Shown: positions 14,743 through 20,083 of the stretch, one piece after another | Layout: each line of letters begins with the position of its first letter | Numbering within the stretch: position 1 is the first letter of the stretch | Source of the DNA: Marinoscillum pacificum | GTDB taxonomy: Bacteria; Bacteroidota; Bacteroidia; Cytophagales; Cyclobacteriaceae | Direction: 5' to 3' | Length of the DNA: 64,000 nt | Assembly: GCF_024714495.1 (NCBI RefSeq) | Contig: NZ_JAMZMJ010000004.1 | Span: forward strand, 124,001-188,000 | Program-made: the position numbers and the translations under genes | The notes under the pieces: model-generated | The model's input: the letters and a program-made list of their open reading frames with translations, nothing else | Told to the model about the DNA's origin: nothing | Database searches by the model: none

Positions 14743-15336
14743 TTACTTTCGTTGTGCTCTTATTCTGCTAAGAGACTGAGGTTGAATACCAAGGTAAGAC
14801 GCCAGGAATTTAACGGGTACATTCATGGCAATATTGGGTCTATTCTTTAGTAGTTTTTCATAACGTTCGCTAGCACTTAATCGCTGCAAATCCAACAACC
14901 TTTCCCCTGATCTTAAAATGGCTTCTTCCGTAAAACCAGAGCAGAATCTTGGCCAGGAATTGACTTCTCGGTATACCCGATCATAGTCTGTTTTATTAAC
15001 CATCAACAAAGTAGAATCTGTCATGGCTTGTACTGATTCAGTTGATTTGACCCCTCGTTGAAACCCTTCATAAGATGAAATCATTTGACCTTTTTCTCCA
15101 AGCGAGGTGGTAAACTCTTCTCCATTTTCATTGAGAAAAAAAGTTCTTACATATCCTGAATTGATAAAATAAAGATGATGAACCAGATTCCCTTGATGTA
15201 TCAAAATTTCTCCTTTTTTTGCTTGAACTACCTGAAAACAAGATCTGATCAGGTCCAAATCGTCTTTGGCAACTGAATTGAATGCCTCTAACTGATCGAG
15301 GAGAAGCTGATATGGTGAGGCAGTAACAGGAATCAT
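14743..15336 (-). CDS. Crp/Fnr-family transcriptional regulator
   Basis: The protein has a cyclic-nucleotide-binding-like beta roll (about 25-125; KKGEILIHQGNLVHHLYFINSG, in fragments) and a C-terminal winged helix with NVPVKFLASYLGIQPQSLSRIR as the recognition region. I use the ATG at 15336 (197 residues). The frame is open to 15519, but that extension would run into the divergent permease gene and contains nothing like the family. There are no N-terminal Cys for an Fe-S cluster, so it is not FNR proper. Because it is divergent from the permease - dehydrogenase operon with 133 bases between, it is a good candidate for its regulator. The effector is unknown. Confidence 0.88.
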   Translation of the reverse strand: MIPVTASPYQLLLDQLEAFNSVAKDDLDLIRSCFQVVQAKKGEILIHQGNLVHHLYFINSGYVRTFFLNENGEEFTTSLGEKGQMISSYEGFQRGVKSTESVQAMTDSTLLMVNKTDYDRVYREVNSWPRFCSGFTEEAILRSGERLLDLQRLSASERYEKLLKNRPNIAMNVPVKFLASYLGIQPQSLSRIRAQRK

Positions 15337-15469
15337 AACACAACAAGATACATTCTCCTTTGAAAAAATTCCAAATAATTTAGAACGACATTGAGTATTC
15401 ACTAATATTTTCACCCGTTTACTGAAAAAAAGAGCTATCGACTTAGTATTTTTAGAATCAAAACTCACT

Positions 15470-16789
15470 ATGCCTATGCCTTCATCAAATCCCACTCTTA
15501 AAAAAACTCTCGGACCCATTATGCTCTGGGGACTGGGGGTAGGCTATGTCATCTCTGGCATGTACTTCGGGTGGAATTTGGGACTTGCTGAAGGTGGCAC
15601 ATCAGGTCTAGCCATTGCTACTTTCTTTATCATCATCATGTATTTGACCTTTACCTTTAGCTATACCGAATTGGCCTGTGCGATTCCAAAGGCTGGAGGT
15701 GCTTTTGACTATGCGGACAGAGCATTGGGCAAGAACCTGGGCTTTGTTGCCGGGATGGCACAAAATGTCGAATTCATCTTTGCTCCACCTGCTATTGCAG
15801 CAGCCATTGGTGCATATTTTCATATTTTTCTTCCTCAGGTAGACACCATTTACATCGCGATAGTGGCTTATTTGCTTTTTACTGGGCTCAACATAGTTGG
15901 AGTAAAAGCTGCAGCCATCTTTGAATTGGTCATCACGATATTGGCAGTTCTGGAATTGTTGATTTTTGCGGGGGTTTGTCTGCCAAATGTGGAATGGAAA
16001 AATCTGGAATTAAATGCACTCCCCAATGGATATCAGGGAGCTTTTGCGGCGATCCCATTTGCCATATGGTTCTTCCTGGCCATAGAAGGGGTAGCTAATG
16101 TAGCAGAAGAGGCCAGAAACCCACAACGCAGCATTCTAATTGGTTTTGGCTCTGCGATTATGACACTCGTTGTGCTTTGCTTGCTAACGTTCGTTTCTGC
16201 TGTTGGCGTAGATGGATGGGAATCAGTAGTCTATCCTCCAGGAAGCACAGATGCTTCAGATAGTCCGTTACCATTGGCTCTTGCCAAAATTGTAGGCGAT
16301 GGACATATCTTATACCATCTCCTAATTACTGTTGGGCTATTTGGATTAGTTGCCTCCTTTCACGGAATCATCCTTGCCGCGGGCCGCTCTACATTTGAGT
16401 TTGGAAGAGTTGGATACATTCCGAAAAAACTGGGAAAAGTACATCCTAAAACCAGCACTCCAGCTAATGCATTGATCGTGAATATGCTGATTGGTATTGT
16501 CGCTTTGATCACTGGAAAAACCGGTGAAATTATCACCATAGCCTGTTTCGGTGCATTGACTTTATACATTATTTCGATGATCGCATTCTTCCAATTACGC
16601 AAACATGAACCGGATTTGGAAAGACCGTTCAAAGTTCCTTTGTACCCAATATTTCCAGCAGTGGCATTAGTGATTGCGACCATCGCTTTGGCAGCAATGA
16701 CCGTATACAATTTACAGCTTGCAGGTATCTATTTTCTAATCATGGCAGGAGCCTACATCTGGTTTCAGTTTACCAATAAAAACTCCTAA
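15470..16789 (+). CDS. eat: ethanolamine permease-like APC transporter
   Basis: This is a 439-residue amino acid-polyamine-organocation transporter with about 12 membrane helices. The N-terminus (LGPIMLWGLGVGYVISG, then YFGWNLGLAEGG) and the AIPFAIWFFLAIEGVANVAEE stretch near residue 210 match the ethanolamine permease family. It would import ethanolamine or a similar amino alcohol by proton symport across the inner membrane. It leads an operon with an iron alcohol dehydrogenase, a PuuD-like amidotransferase and an aldehyde dehydrogenase. No ethanolamine ammonia-lyase (eutBC) or microcompartment gene is near. Another amine as substrate is possible. Confidence 0.85.
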   Translation: MPMPSSNPTLKKTLGPIMLWGLGVGYVISGMYFGWNLGLAEGGTSGLAIATFFIIIMYLTFTFSYTELACAIPKAGGAFDYADRALGKNLGFVAGMAQNVEFIFAPPAIAAAIGAYFHIFLPQVDTIYIAIVAYLLFTGLNIVGVKAAAIFELVITILAVLELLIFAGVCLPNVEWKNLELNALPNGYQGAFAAIPFAIWFFLAIEGVANVAEEARNPQRSILIGFGSAIMTLVVLCLLTFVSAVGVDGWESVVYPPGSTDASDSPLPLALAKIVGDGHILYHLLITVGLFGLVASFHGIILAAGRSTFEFGRVGYIPKKLGKVHPKTSTPANALIVNMLIGIVALITGKTGEIITIACFGALTLYIISMIAFFQLRKHEPDLERPFKVPLYPIFPAVALVIATIALAAMTVYNLQLAGIYFLIMAGAYIWFQFTNKNS

Positions 16790-16818
16790 CTTAACCGAGC
16801 ACAATTGCACCACGTAAG

Positions 16819-17961
16819 ATGCAACAACGACTGAATTTCAACTTTCCTTGCCCAATCAGATTTGGTGCAGGAGTCATCGACGAACTAGCGGATCATTTAC
16901 TAGCCCAAGGGTTAAAACACCCACTTATTGTAACGGATCCCGTTATTGCTGACCTGGATTTTTTTAAAGACATAGTGGAATCACTGAAGAATAAAAACCT
17001 CGCAGTGGATGTCTATTCTGAAATGCATAAGAATCCTGTGAAGTCTGATGTATTGAAAGGTGGAGACTTCTATCACAATTCAGTTTGTGATTGCATCGTC
17101 GGAATTGGTGGAGGAGTAGCGTTGGATGTAGCGAGAGCAATCGTGTTACGCATCAATCACCACAGAGACTTATTTGATTACGATGACCTCATAGGAGGTG
17201 ATAAATATGTAACGGAAGATGTTCCGTACTTTGTGACTGTCCCGACCACTTCAGGTACTGGAAGTGAAGTTGGGAGAAGTGCTATCATTTCGGAAGATGA
17301 GAGCAAGAAAAAGCGCATTCTATTCGCTCCAAAACTGATGGCAAGACAGGTTTTTGCTGATCCGGAACTGACGATGGGTCTTCCATCTCATGTAACAGCA
17401 GCAACGGGTATGGATGCTTTAACGCATAACATGGAAGCCTACCTTGCTAAGAATTATCATCCAATGTGTGATGGCATCGCCCTGGAGGGAATGGCGCTAA
17501 TTGCCAAATCAATCGAAAAAGCGACTCATCACCCAGATATTCAATCTCGATCAGACATGCTTTTGGGATCGATGATGGGAGCTATAGCATTTCAAAAAGG
17601 ACTTGGAGTTGTTCACAGTTTAGCACATCCCATGTCTAGTTTATTGGACACTCATCATGGCCTGGCCAATGCGGTCAACCTACCTTATGGAATGGCTTTC
17701 AATTACAATGGCTTTGAAGCTCGTTTTGATAAAATGGCGGAATTTCTAGGAGTCATCGATGGCGATGGAGAACATGTAGTTGATTACTTGTTTGAACTGA
17801 ATCAACGACTAGAACTCCCAACACAATTGCGAGATGTGGGAGTGAAAGAAGAGCATCTGGAACCATTGGCACAATTAGCCATTCAAGACTTTGCACATCC
17901 AAATAATCCAAAACCAGTATCACTGGACGACTTTAGATCACTCTATCAAAAAGCATATTAA
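16819..17961 (+). CDS. iron-containing alcohol dehydrogenase
   Basis: This 380-residue protein belongs to the group III (Fe-ADH) dehydrogenases. It shows the NAD-binding GIGGGVALDVAR segment (about residue 95), TVPTTSGTGSEV, and metal ligands in GMDALTHNMEAY (D and H), VVHSLAHPMS (H) and DTHHGLANA (H). It oxidises a primary alcohol to an aldehyde, or the reverse, with NAD(P). It lies 29 bases after the permease and 2 bases before the amidotransferase gene. In the pathway proposed here it would oxidise the hydroxyl of a gamma-glutamylated amino alcohol. Its true substrate is not shown by the sequence. Confidence 0.92.
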   Translation: MQQRLNFNFPCPIRFGAGVIDELADHLLAQGLKHPLIVTDPVIADLDFFKDIVESLKNKNLAVDVYSEMHKNPVKSDVLKGGDFYHNSVCDCIVGIGGGVALDVARAIVLRINHHRDLFDYDDLIGGDKYVTEDVPYFVTVPTTSGTGSEVGRSAIISEDESKKKRILFAPKLMARQVFADPELTMGLPSHVTAATGMDALTHNMEAYLAKNYHPMCDGIALEGMALIAKSIEKATHHPDIQSRSDMLLGSMMGAIAFQKGLGVVHSLAHPMSSLLDTHHGLANAVNLPYGMAFNYNGFEARFDKMAEFLGVIDGDGEHVVDYLFELNQRLELPTQLRDVGVKEEHLEPLAQLAIQDFAHPNNPKPVSLDDFRSLYQKAY

Positions 17962-17963
17962 AC

Positions 17964-18722
17964 ATGCTTAAAATCGGCATATCTGCTTGCTTTATGTACC
18001 CGGACCCTGCGAGAGCAGTATTCGGACCCAAAACGCTGAATTATCTGGAAAGCGACATGGCTCGCTTTGTTTCCAAAGAGGGTGTGTTACCTATTTTAAT
18101 TCCTGACCTGGATGATGAACGATTGCTTCCAATCATTGCAGAAATGGATGGATTCGTCTTTCAAGGAGGAACAGATGTGGCCCCTGAGGCTTACGGCGAA
18201 GAGCCAATTGGTCGCTGGAAAGGTGACCCTATACGTGATGTGTATGAACTGAAGCTTTTTGAATTGGCTGTAAAAAGTGGCAAACCAATATTGGCCATCT
18301 GTCGAGGCATGCAACTGATGAATGTCTATTTTGGCGGGTCATTGTATCAAGATACTGATACGCAACTAGAAGATGTACTTACTCATCGGGATGCAGACAC
18401 ATATGATTATTTATATCATGAGGTGGCCTTTACCAAAGGGAAAATATTAGATAAAATCTATCAGAATGCTGCTGTAAAGCAAGTAAATAGTGTCCATCAT
18501 CAGTCAGTGAAAAAACTTGGTAAAAATGTAGAAATACTCGCTGAAAGTCCGACTGATGGAATCATCGAAGCAATCGGATACACCAAAGCTCCAGAAGGAT
18601 GGATCATGGGTGTCCAGTGGCATCCAGAATTTTCAGAAACTTTAAAAGAAAGCGTCATTAACGCTGATTTATTATACAATTTCTTCCTGACTCAGGTAAA
18701 ATCCTTAAAACCAGATTTGTAA
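17964..18722 (+). CDS. gamma-glutamyl-gamma-aminobutyrate hydrolase family protein (class I GATase)
   Basis: This 252-residue hydrolase belongs to the PuuD family. The catalytic triad is present: C113 in AICRGMQLMN, H220 and E222 in VQWHPEF. FQGGTDVAPEAY near residue 57 is the usual oxyanion-side motif. PuuD-type enzymes hydrolyse the gamma-glutamyl amide bond after the amine part has been oxidised. The gene starts 2 bases after the dehydrogenase gene and ends with a 1-base overlap (TAATG) with the aldehyde dehydrogenase gene. A gamma-glutamyl ligase of the glutamine synthetase family, which would be needed before it, is not in the window. It has no signal peptide. Confidence 0.9.
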   Translation: MLKIGISACFMYPDPARAVFGPKTLNYLESDMARFVSKEGVLPILIPDLDDERLLPIIAEMDGFVFQGGTDVAPEAYGEEPIGRWKGDPIRDVYELKLFELAVKSGKPILAICRGMQLMNVYFGGSLYQDTDTQLEDVLTHRDADTYDYLYHEVAFTKGKILDKIYQNAAVKQVNSVHHQSVKKLGKNVEILAESPTDGIIEAIGYTKAPEGWIMGVQWHPEFSETLKESVINADLLYNFFLTQVKSLKPDL

Positions 18723-20083
18723 TGCAAATAATCAATCCAGCTACCGAAGAAATCATTACAGAACTTCCAGAAGATTCTCAGGAAAGCATTCAGGAGAAGC
18801 TCGCTTCTTTGAGAAAAGGACAAAAAGAGTGGGCCAAAAAACCAGTTGAAGAACGACTGGAAGTCATCATCCAGTTTGGAGAGTTGGTTAAAGCCAATAA
18901 GGAAGAATTAGCCTTCGTATTGACGAGTGAAACAGGAAAGCCTATTGCTCAGTCAAGAAATGAAGTAAACGGTTCTCTCAATAGAATAGAACACCTTAAA
19001 ACCAATGCGCTTAAGTGGCTCGCTACGGAGACCGTTGCAACAGGTGATGTTACTGAAAGCATTGCCTATGAACCACTTGGAGTCATTGCGAATATTTCCG
19101 CATGGAATTTCCCGTACAATGTCGGATACAATGTGTTTCTCTATGCGATAGTAGCAGGAAATGCAGTGCTATACAAACCTTCAGAATTTGCAACGCTTAC
19201 TGGAATGAACTTTAAGGAACTGCTTCATCAAGCAGGAGTTCCTGAAAATGTATTCGACGTTGCGATTGGCACAGGTCAGGTTGGACAATATTTATTGGAT
19301 GCTGATTTAGATGGATACTTCTTCACGGGCTCATACAAAACAGGAGTTCATATTGCCAAGTCTGTAGCTCATAAACTGGTGCCTGTTCAGCTAGAACTTG
19401 GCGGGAAAGATCCACTCTATGTGATGGATGACATTGCTGACATCAAGCAAGCTGCTATCAATGCTGCAGAAGGTGCTTTTTATAACAATGGCCAAAGCTG
19501 CTGTGCGGTGGAGCGCATTTATGTGCAGGATAAAATCTATGATGAGTTTGTGAAGCACTTTGTAGAAGAAGTAAAATCTTATCCAATGGGAGATCCTACC
19601 GAGGACGCTACATTCACTGGTCCTTTGACCAGAGCACAACAAGTAGAAGTTATTTTGGAGCAATTAAATGATTCTATTCAAAAAGGTGCAAAAATCTTAC
19701 TCGGTGGCGACCAACCTGAAGGACCAGGATATTATCTAAACCCCACAGTAGTAGTTGATACCAACCATGAGATGGAGCTCATGAAGGAAGAGTCTTTTGG
19801 CCCAGTGATCGGCATTCAAAAAGTCAATACGGATGCTGAAGCTTTGGAATTGATGCAAGACACGCCTTATGGCTTAACTGCTGCTATTTATTCTACGGAT
19901 GAAGCTCGTGCAAAAGCTCTCTTAGATGAAATGAACGTTGGGACGGTTTACTGGAACTGTTGTGATCGCGTAAGTCCAAATACTCCTTGGTCTGGTAGAA
20001 AAAATTCTGGATTGGGATCTACTCTTTCCTCTCAAGGAATCAGAGCGTTTACTCAGCCGAAGAGTTATCAGATGAGAGGCTGA
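18722..20083 (+). CDS. NAD(P)-dependent aldehyde dehydrogenase
   Basis: This 453-residue enzyme has the ALDH fold with ISAWNFPYNVGYN, the nucleotide-binding FTGSYKTGV, general base E225 in LELGGKDP and catalytic C260 in NNGQSCCAVER. It would oxidise an aldehyde to a carboxylate. It is the last gene of the permease - Fe-ADH - PuuD-like - ALDH operon, coupled to the preceding gene by TAATG. The alcohol dehydrogenase and this enzyme together would turn a hydroxyl into a carboxylate while the amine is shielded by glutamate; succinate-semialdehyde or betaine-aldehyde type activity is an alternative. It converges directly with the sensor kinase gene, leaving no gap. Confidence 0.93.
   Translation: MQIINPATEEIITELPEDSQESIQEKLASLRKGQKEWAKKPVEERLEVIIQFGELVKANKEELAFVLTSETGKPIAQSRNEVNGSLNRIEHLKTNALKWLATETVATGDVTESIAYEPLGVIANISAWNFPYNVGYNVFLYAIVAGNAVLYKPSEFATLTGMNFKELLHQAGVPENVFDVAIGTGQVGQYLLDADLDGYFFTGSYKTGVHIAKSVAHKLVPVQLELGGKDPLYVMDDIADIKQAAINAAEGAFYNNGQSCCAVERIYVQDKIYDEFVKHFVEEVKSYPMGDPTEDATFTGPLTRAQQVEVILEQLNDSIQKGAKILLGGDQPEGPGYYLNPTVVVDTNHEMELMKEESFGPVIGIQKVNTDAEALELMQDTPYGLTAAIYSTDEARAKALLDEMNVGTVYWNCCDRVSPNTPWSGRKNSGLGSTLSSQGIRAFTQPKSYQMRG

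Follow-up and report, generated by a model that had tools for sequence, protein, structure and literature searches.

Gamma-glutamylation of ethanolamine is known from GlnA4 of Streptomyces coelicolor (PMC6529630), the corresponding gene set of Chromohalobacter salexigens consists of members of PF00120, PF00465, PF00171, and PF05013 (PMC9397018), and the operon proteins of Phaeobacter sp. MED193 rise on phosphorylethanolamine (PMC10132767). The logic of the pathway is already published for Streptomyces, Chromohalobacter, and Phaeobacter. Here we describe a four-gene operon of Marinoscillum pacificum, a member of the Bacteroidota, within a stretch of 64,000 nucleotides (contig NZ_JAMZMJ010000004.1, positions 124,001 to 188,000; hereafter the window). 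We consider it likely, with a probability of roughly 0.84, that this operon imports and degrades ethanolamine by a gamma-glutamylation route, the first step of which would be performed by a ligase encoded at a remote site of the same genome.

The operon and its candidate ligase

The operon comprises the following features (window coordinates):

15470..16789, + strand: ethanolamine permease, amino acid-polyamine-organocation (APC) family (TIGR00908, PF13520)
16790..16818, no strand: 29-base gap, the place of the gamma-glutamyl ligase gene in the common operon of relatives (gene order)
16819..17961, + strand: iron-type alcohol dehydrogenase (Fe-ADH), proposed gamma-glutamylethanolamide dehydrogenase (PF00465/PF25137)
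17964..18722, + strand: PuuD-like class I amidohydrolase (Peptidase C26), proposed gamma-glutamylglycine hydrolase (PF07722)
18722..20083, + strand: aldehyde dehydrogenase (ALDH), proposed gamma-glutamyl-aminoacetaldehyde dehydrogenase (PF00171)

The tight linkage of the four genes, noted in a preliminary description of this DNA, was confirmed by the open reading frame (ORF) list (one strand, spacings of 29, 2, and -1 bases), by TIGR00908 and Pfam, and by all five other genomes of the genus, which have the same genes in the same order and orientation (6/6 with the window), the ligase being absent from each operon. The permease scored 470.4 bits against the TIGR00908 ethanolamine permease model (curated cut-off 381.75), and ethanolamine transport is predicted from this score. 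The equivalog-model matches of the other three proteins in NCBIfam were all below cut-off, the best being 4-hydroxybutyrate dehydrogenase for Fe-ADH and succinic semialdehyde dehydrogenase for ALDH. The PuuD-like protein matched PF07722 at 190.8 bits and keeps the Cys/His/Glu columns when aligned with E. coli PuuD, Fe-ADH carries the motifs GMDALTH, HSLAHP, and HHG, and Cys260 and Glu225 of ALDH occupy the aligned catalytic positions. Pfam detected no oxidase among the four genes that could correspond to PuuB of the Puu pathway.

Judging from sequence, the enzymes of the operon probably act as follows. The permease would take up ethanolamine; the remote ligase, a glutamine synthetase (GS)-like protein of 447 aa, would join ethanolamine and glutamate at the expense of ATP to give gamma-glutamylethanolamide; Fe-ADH would oxidize the hydroxyl group of this compound to an aldehyde, which ALDH would convert to gamma-glutamylglycine; and the PuuD-like enzyme would release glutamate and glycine. 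The direct basis of this reading is gene content, gene order, co-occurrence, residue conservation, and EutB not being found, and we infer the substrates and the order of the reactions.

The preliminary description noted that the ligase is missing from the window and advised looking for a GS-like ligase in the genome, whose lack would have refuted the pathway; this refuting outcome did not occur. A PF00120 search of the 6.4-Mb genome found two genes, one of which, on a contig other than that of the window, encodes the 447-aa candidate. The other is a GlnII-type synthetase (336 aa) near a gene that we judged by eye to be ammonium-transporter-like. The candidate and its neighbors are as follows:

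G000:C11:1148839-1150182 (L003 7840-9183): GS-like ligase candidate, 447 aa (PF00120)
L003 9194-10240 (own genome, C11): kinase-like gene, beside the ligase
L003 10243-11097 (own genome, C11): haloacid dehalogenase (HAD)-IIA hydrolase gene, putative phosphatase, beside the kinase-like gene

The candidate does not reach the curated cut-off of the GlnA, GSIII, or gamma-glutamylputrescine synthetase model, and its second-best solved match is 5dm3, which we take to be a C. salexigens protein. Aligned to E. coli GlnA, it has all six metal ligands as well as G265, R321, R359, H271, R339, and R344, so that the metal ligands, two ATP ligands, and most glutamate ligands are retained, and it has Phe in place of Y179. 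The ammonium-site Glu of glutamine synthetase, E327, is Trp in this ligase, as it is in IpuC and in the Legionella homolog. The roles of these residues in GS were taken from a study in which E327 is described as exchanged for Trp in PauA7 and for Phe in GlnA4 (PMC6529630).

Among the best 80 of 578 named relatives, on which our counts of gene order rest, the permease or Fe-ADH was near the ligase gene in 51, the kinase-like gene in 26, neither in 3, and both in none. The linked loci occur in Chitinophaga, Pedobacter, Parapedobacter, Cyclobacterium, Emticicia, and others. The order permease-ligase-FeADH-PuuD-ALDH was seen in 36 of the 51, counting one with a split ALDH match and two (L138 and L189) with gaps of >1 kb; the other 15 show less, some being cut by contig ends, some having only permease and ligase, and one having Fe-ADH on the opposite strand. 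Thus the ligase was found near the homologous operon of relatives, where the preliminary description suggested looking for it, and it lies in many of them between the permease and Fe-ADH. Because the gene for the ligase sits inside the operon of many relatives, the remote ligase is probably the enzyme missing from the window. G022 and G035 show another split, with permease and ligase at one site and Fe-ADH-PuuD-ALDH at another.

To count gene families, 62 loci of relatives (37 genus labels) were chosen for the ligase together with the permease or Fe-ADH. The ligase recurred under 36 labels, the permease under 35, Fe-ADH under 34, ALDH under 33, and PuuD under 31; the next families reached at most 15 and were, by position, mostly antisense frames, with one real-looking neighbor family in 7. 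Since ALDH and PuuD recur although they played no part in the choice of loci, this grouping is not due to chance. PuuD and ALDH are fused into one 699-aa gene in L107 (8443-10542), which fits consecutive steps.

Fe-ADH was present in 12 of a set of 59 relatives (E 1e-60), all 12 with a GS-like ligase (the Fe-ADH of G020 is a distant type at 40%), and the ligase in 13 at an identity of at least 48%, or 18 if five weaker matches (33-36%) are counted. When the phylum was sampled evenly (395 genomes; thresholds E 1e-120 for Fe-ADH and E 1e-110 for the ligase), Fe-ADH occurred in 8 genomes and the ligase in 41, including all 8 Fe-ADH genomes (8/8 genera; Fisher p 2e-8 at the genus level, which was the only correction applied). 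The ligase gene was directly upstream of Fe-ADH in each of the seven Fe-ADH genomes of this sample other than that of the window, so linkage of an alcohol dehydrogenase to the ligase is found in relatives and not in the window genus itself.

Beside the operon lies one further gene:

14743..15336, - strand: divergent Crp/Fnr-like gene (PF00027 only; start taken as the second Met in the ORF list entry)

The listed 258-aa frame (14743-15519) runs into the start of the permease gene, and translation more likely begins downstream, from the ATG at 15336. The preliminary description proposed that this gene may control the operon. This role was not supported, because the gene is adjacent in only 3/6 genomes of the genus and is not among the conserved families, and regulation by it was rejected as a general feature. 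No RNA family was found in the window at the gathering threshold.

The ligase and the kinase-HAD locus

In the ligase tree, which has few outgroups and flagged long branches, the ligase of the window genome joined the Legionella/Burkholderia-type ligases (99/99) and then IpuC and PuuA (87/84), and Ruegeria-type ligases grouped with GlnA4-like ones (96/98). GlnA4-like is our label for the ligases of Arthrobacter U41 (L114) and of loci L096-L099, extended in genome counts to matches of at least 45% identity; it was given because of a layout with a short-chain dehydrogenase/reductase (SDR), ALDH, and a glutamine amidotransferase (GATase) and, in the case of U41, because Phe replaces E327, the sequence of GlnA4 itself not being part of the comparison. 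Relatives of the window-genome ligase are also found near genes for an aminotransferase, formylglutamate amidohydrolase, ALDH, and a dimethylformamidase-like protein (L091 6768-19335 and L202 3981-13310); these loci represent an uncharacterized variant of an amine pathway.

The kinase-like and HAD-IIA genes follow the ligase gene in all six genomes of the window genus. The kinase (threshold E 1e-40) was found in 42/395 genomes, 41 of which have either the window-type ligase (present in 41 genomes) or the GlnA4-like one (present in 11); after collapsing the genomes to genera, the only correction for kinship in these counts, all 18 kinase genera fell within the 28 ligase genera. It was present in 33/33 ligase genomes without Fe-ADH, as against 2/8 with Fe-ADH, and in 11 of the 59 relatives, every one of which has either ligase type. 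Five of the 11 GlnA4-like genomes lack the kinase, and G258 has it with neither ligase; in all four GlnA4-like genomes inspected, kinase and HAD are paired with each other at a distance from the ligase gene or on a different contig. Because an over-cut-off ethanolamine permease is absent from 28 of the 33 kinase- and ligase-containing genomes without Fe-ADH, it is unlikely that the kinase-HAD pair forms an uptake pathway of the kind seen in the window.

The kinase is named from weak matches to PF01636 (3/13 members, best E 0.009) and to homoserine kinase (5/14 members, best E 0.011) and from residues invariant in the alignment (Lys57, Glu69, Asp216, Asn221, and Asp235), which we presume to be those of a kinase; it should be regarded as putative. 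Profile searching of the PDB at E 10 found no match for this protein. Its AlphaFold model was poor, with a mean predicted local distance difference test score of 58.7 and a predicted template modeling (TM) score of 0.51, and the first four Foldseek matches obtained with it were antibiotic kinases of the aminoglycoside phosphotransferase (APH) kind, none reaching E 0.001 and with TM of at most about 0.26. The HAD family matches 2hx1, which is listed as a predicted sugar phosphatase.

It is likely that the ligase moved out of the operon in the window genus, as its ligases group with operon ligases (93/97) in a 47-row tree. Its rows were G020, three references, and 43 ligases belonging to this branch; of the 41 phylum-sample ligase genomes, the 9 without an available locus were left out, and G038 entered with its full frame in place of two fragments. 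The genus formed its own branch, beside those of its order and class, in small trees of the kinase and of HAD (13 and 12 rows, respectively). The upstream regions of the operon and of the ligase in the six genomes, aligned separately, showed no convincing shared motif by eye, no motif search or statistic having been used. With this support, an alternative topology that was not rejected, and a differing grouping in a smaller set (below), demonstration of the own ligase as an operon type was not obtained. A wider scheme, which is conceivable but rather doubtful, is that the gamma-glutamyl ligases of Bacteroidota feed two branches, the oxidative operon and, more commonly in our sample, an undescribed pair of APH-like kinase and HAD-IIA phosphatase acting on a gamma-glutamylated amine or ethanolamine, and that both branches share one ligase in the window genus, moved from the operon to the kinase-HAD locus.

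The substrate and alternative explanations

The preliminary description noted eutBC and shell genes as absent. In our search, which in the window genome covered EutB but not EutC or shell genes, PF06751 (EutB), positive in the E. coli control, was found in none of the six genomes of the genus, and a Eut pathway was rejected. EutB was likewise found in 0/19 distinct Fe-ADH genomes (0/12 among relatives and 0/8 in the phylum sample). Because EutB and Fe-ADH never occur together in these 19 genomes, the route looks like a substitute for Eut, with an inferred chemistry needing neither B12 nor a shell. Two further pathways were considered and rejected. The Puu putrescine pathway requires the amine oxidase PuuB, which was found neither in the window operon nor among the five families widely shared by the loci of relatives. 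In the isopropylamine pathway, P450 and ferredoxin genes are annotated beside IpuC on pTC2; such genes are not among the widely shared families of operon loci, and none was seen beside the remote ligase in the ORF listing, which was not scanned gene by gene.

Homologs of the permease adjoin EutB in G053, G156, G418, G269, and G304, which supports ethanolamine as the substrate. In G053 (L233 2775-6886), the permease homolog (49%), EutB, and EutC stand in that order on the same strand. Over-cut-off TIGR00908 permeases occurred in 7/7 other operon genomes and in 5/33 ligase genomes without Fe-ADH; all of the latter five have EutB, adjacent in G156, G269, G304, and G418 and on another contig in G426. 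Such a permease was also present in 3 of 10 GlnA4-like-ligase genomes examined, and the eleventh, G046, has a 57% homolog; that of G020 (36%) scored 364.7 bits, just under the cut-off. Four genomes of the family of the window carry a GlnA4-like ligase-SDR-ALDH-GATase set (L096 4301-10001; L097, L098, and L099), a Streptomyces-like route within Bacteroidota, and the permease adjoins this set in G032 and G011 (81% and 67%; L096 and L099). Standing next to EutB, Fe-ADH, or SDR sets, the permease family is thus paired with three enzyme sets that fit ethanolamine. The gamma-glutamyl route of the preliminary description is supported, at the level of sequence comparison, by the ligase in the genome, its place in the operons of relatives, and EutB not being found.

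Several observations weigh against ethanolamine or against the service of the remote ligase. Identity to the Ruegeria-type operons is only 36-37% for Fe-ADH and 34% for ALDH, and the ligase shares only 34-35% identity with its counterparts in the Ruegeria, Marinovum, and Paracoccus operons, being nearer to the Legionella/Burkholderia group (46%) and to IpuC (41%); one member of the former group lies near aminotransferase and polyamine-transporter genes. With such relatives and such varied amine-gene neighbors, the sequence of the ligase alone does not fix the amine, and the name of the permease model is no test of the substrate. The same logic could therefore serve another small amino alcohol (e.g., aminopropanol, alaninol, or serinol), with ethanolamine not the main substrate. 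We regard this as improbable, because the permease exceeds the curated ethanolamine cut-off and has homologs beside EutB in five other genomes, and because both dehydrogenases cluster with those of Ruegeria/Marinovum operons. In a tree of 11 rows, the Fe-ADHs that are linked to a ligase in Ruegeria, Marinovum, Paracoccus, and Legionella lytica form a group with that of the window (98/96); the only two outgroups, EutG and FucO, were both flagged as long. The ALDH groups with those of Ruegeria/Marinovum/Paracoccus and Legionella (100/100), apart from PuuC, GabD, BetB, and two Arthrobacter-type ALDHs (U41 and TC1), in a tree of 17 rows with a long-branch warning.

As for the ligase, it is unlinked to the operon in 6/6 genomes of the genus, D50 aligns as Asp, like true GS, in a variable region, and N264 is Pro. 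If the four genes acted without it, Fe-ADH and ALDH might, for example, oxidize a free hydroxy-compound, as their below-cut-off NCBIfam matches would allow, and PuuD might act on an imported gamma-glutamyl compound; this is very unlikely given that the same operon contains the ligase in many relatives and that the ligase is present in 19/19 Fe-ADH genomes. Moreover, 33/41 ligase genomes of the phylum sample lack Fe-ADH, so the ligase has another role too. In the genus it might work only with the kinase-like and HAD genes, the first step of the operon falling to an unrecognized enzyme. In favor of this are the ligase-kinase-HAD linkage throughout the genus, the kinase in every one of those 33 genomes, and the fact that a single clade of all kinase-linked ligases was not rejected by the approximately unbiased test (p-AU 0.165, or 0.264 minus one long row); in addition, the own ligase stood next to a single kinase-linked one in a smaller set (80/92). 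We nevertheless think it has a small chance of being correct, since the larger tree groups the ligase with operon ligases and the genome has one PF00120 gene besides GlnII, other ligase families not having been searched for. The remote ligase probably serves the ethanolamine operon.

Significance and comparison with described systems

Among the papers listed from open-licence PMC literature (titles and starts of abstracts), none dealt with a gamma-glutamylethanolamide pathway of Bacteroidota, and the word stem "bacteroid" is absent from the main texts of PMC10132767 and PMC9397018. As far as these searches show, the lineage, the part list, the unlinked ligase, and the kinase-HAD association are new. 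If our reading is true, eut-independent ethanolamine use extends to a broad set of Bacteroidota, and the five genes provide a signature for spotting the route in metagenomes. The finding also brings to light a pair of putative kinase and phosphatase, the former of which co-occurs with gamma-glutamyl ligases.

The operon of Phaeobacter, Chromohalobacter, and Agrobacterium resembles that of the window in having a PF00120 ligase, a PF00465 Fe-ADH, a PF00171 ALDH, an amidohydrolase, and an ethanolamine transporter (PMC10132767; PMC9397018). As described there, however, the Phaeobacter-type operon has a tripartite ATP-independent periplasmic (TRAP) transporter instead of the APC permease, a PF05013 formylglutamate amidohydrolase instead of the PuuD type, and an RpiR regulator; its ligase type belongs to another branch, to which the 34-35% identity given above refers. 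Plasmid records of Ruegeria and Marinovum share the described layout. On the Paracoccus pantotrophus plasmid (L201 7094-15074), the order formylglutamate amidohydrolase-ligase-ALDH-FeADH is followed by bhcBCD, encoding beta-hydroxyaspartate enzymes. These genes of glyoxylate metabolism are linked to glycine, and their position fits glycine as the product.

The GlnA4 pathway of S. coelicolor likewise has a ligase, alcohol and aldehyde dehydrogenases, an amidotransferase-type hydrolase, and, in some species, a permease gene, but an SDR where the window has Fe-ADH (PMC6529630). As a model for this locus, as used in the preliminary description, GlnA4 holds for gamma-glutamylation and not for the closest gene set, which is the Fe-ADH version of Chromohalobacter/Phaeobacter. 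The uncharacterized set on a Legionella lytica plasmid (L095) has a GS-like ligase (46%), ALDH, Fe-ADH, and GATase in a row, but in the order ligase-ALDH-FeADH-GATase, with a GATase that shares only 14% identity with PuuD of the window and no permease of the window kind annotated in the stretch. The E. coli Puu pathway shares the ligase, the PuuD-type hydrolase, and ALDH, whereas it uses the oxidase PuuB and the aminotransferase PuuE and the window operon has an alcohol dehydrogenase. These comparisons suggest that the steps are built from interchangeable parts, namely Fe-ADH or SDR, PuuD, another GATase or formylglutamate amidohydrolase, a TRAP or APC transporter, and ligases of at least two branches, and that the window operon represents a new combination of them, in which a ligase of the other branch, unlinked in this genus, goes with an APC permease and a PuuD-type hydrolase beside Fe-ADH.

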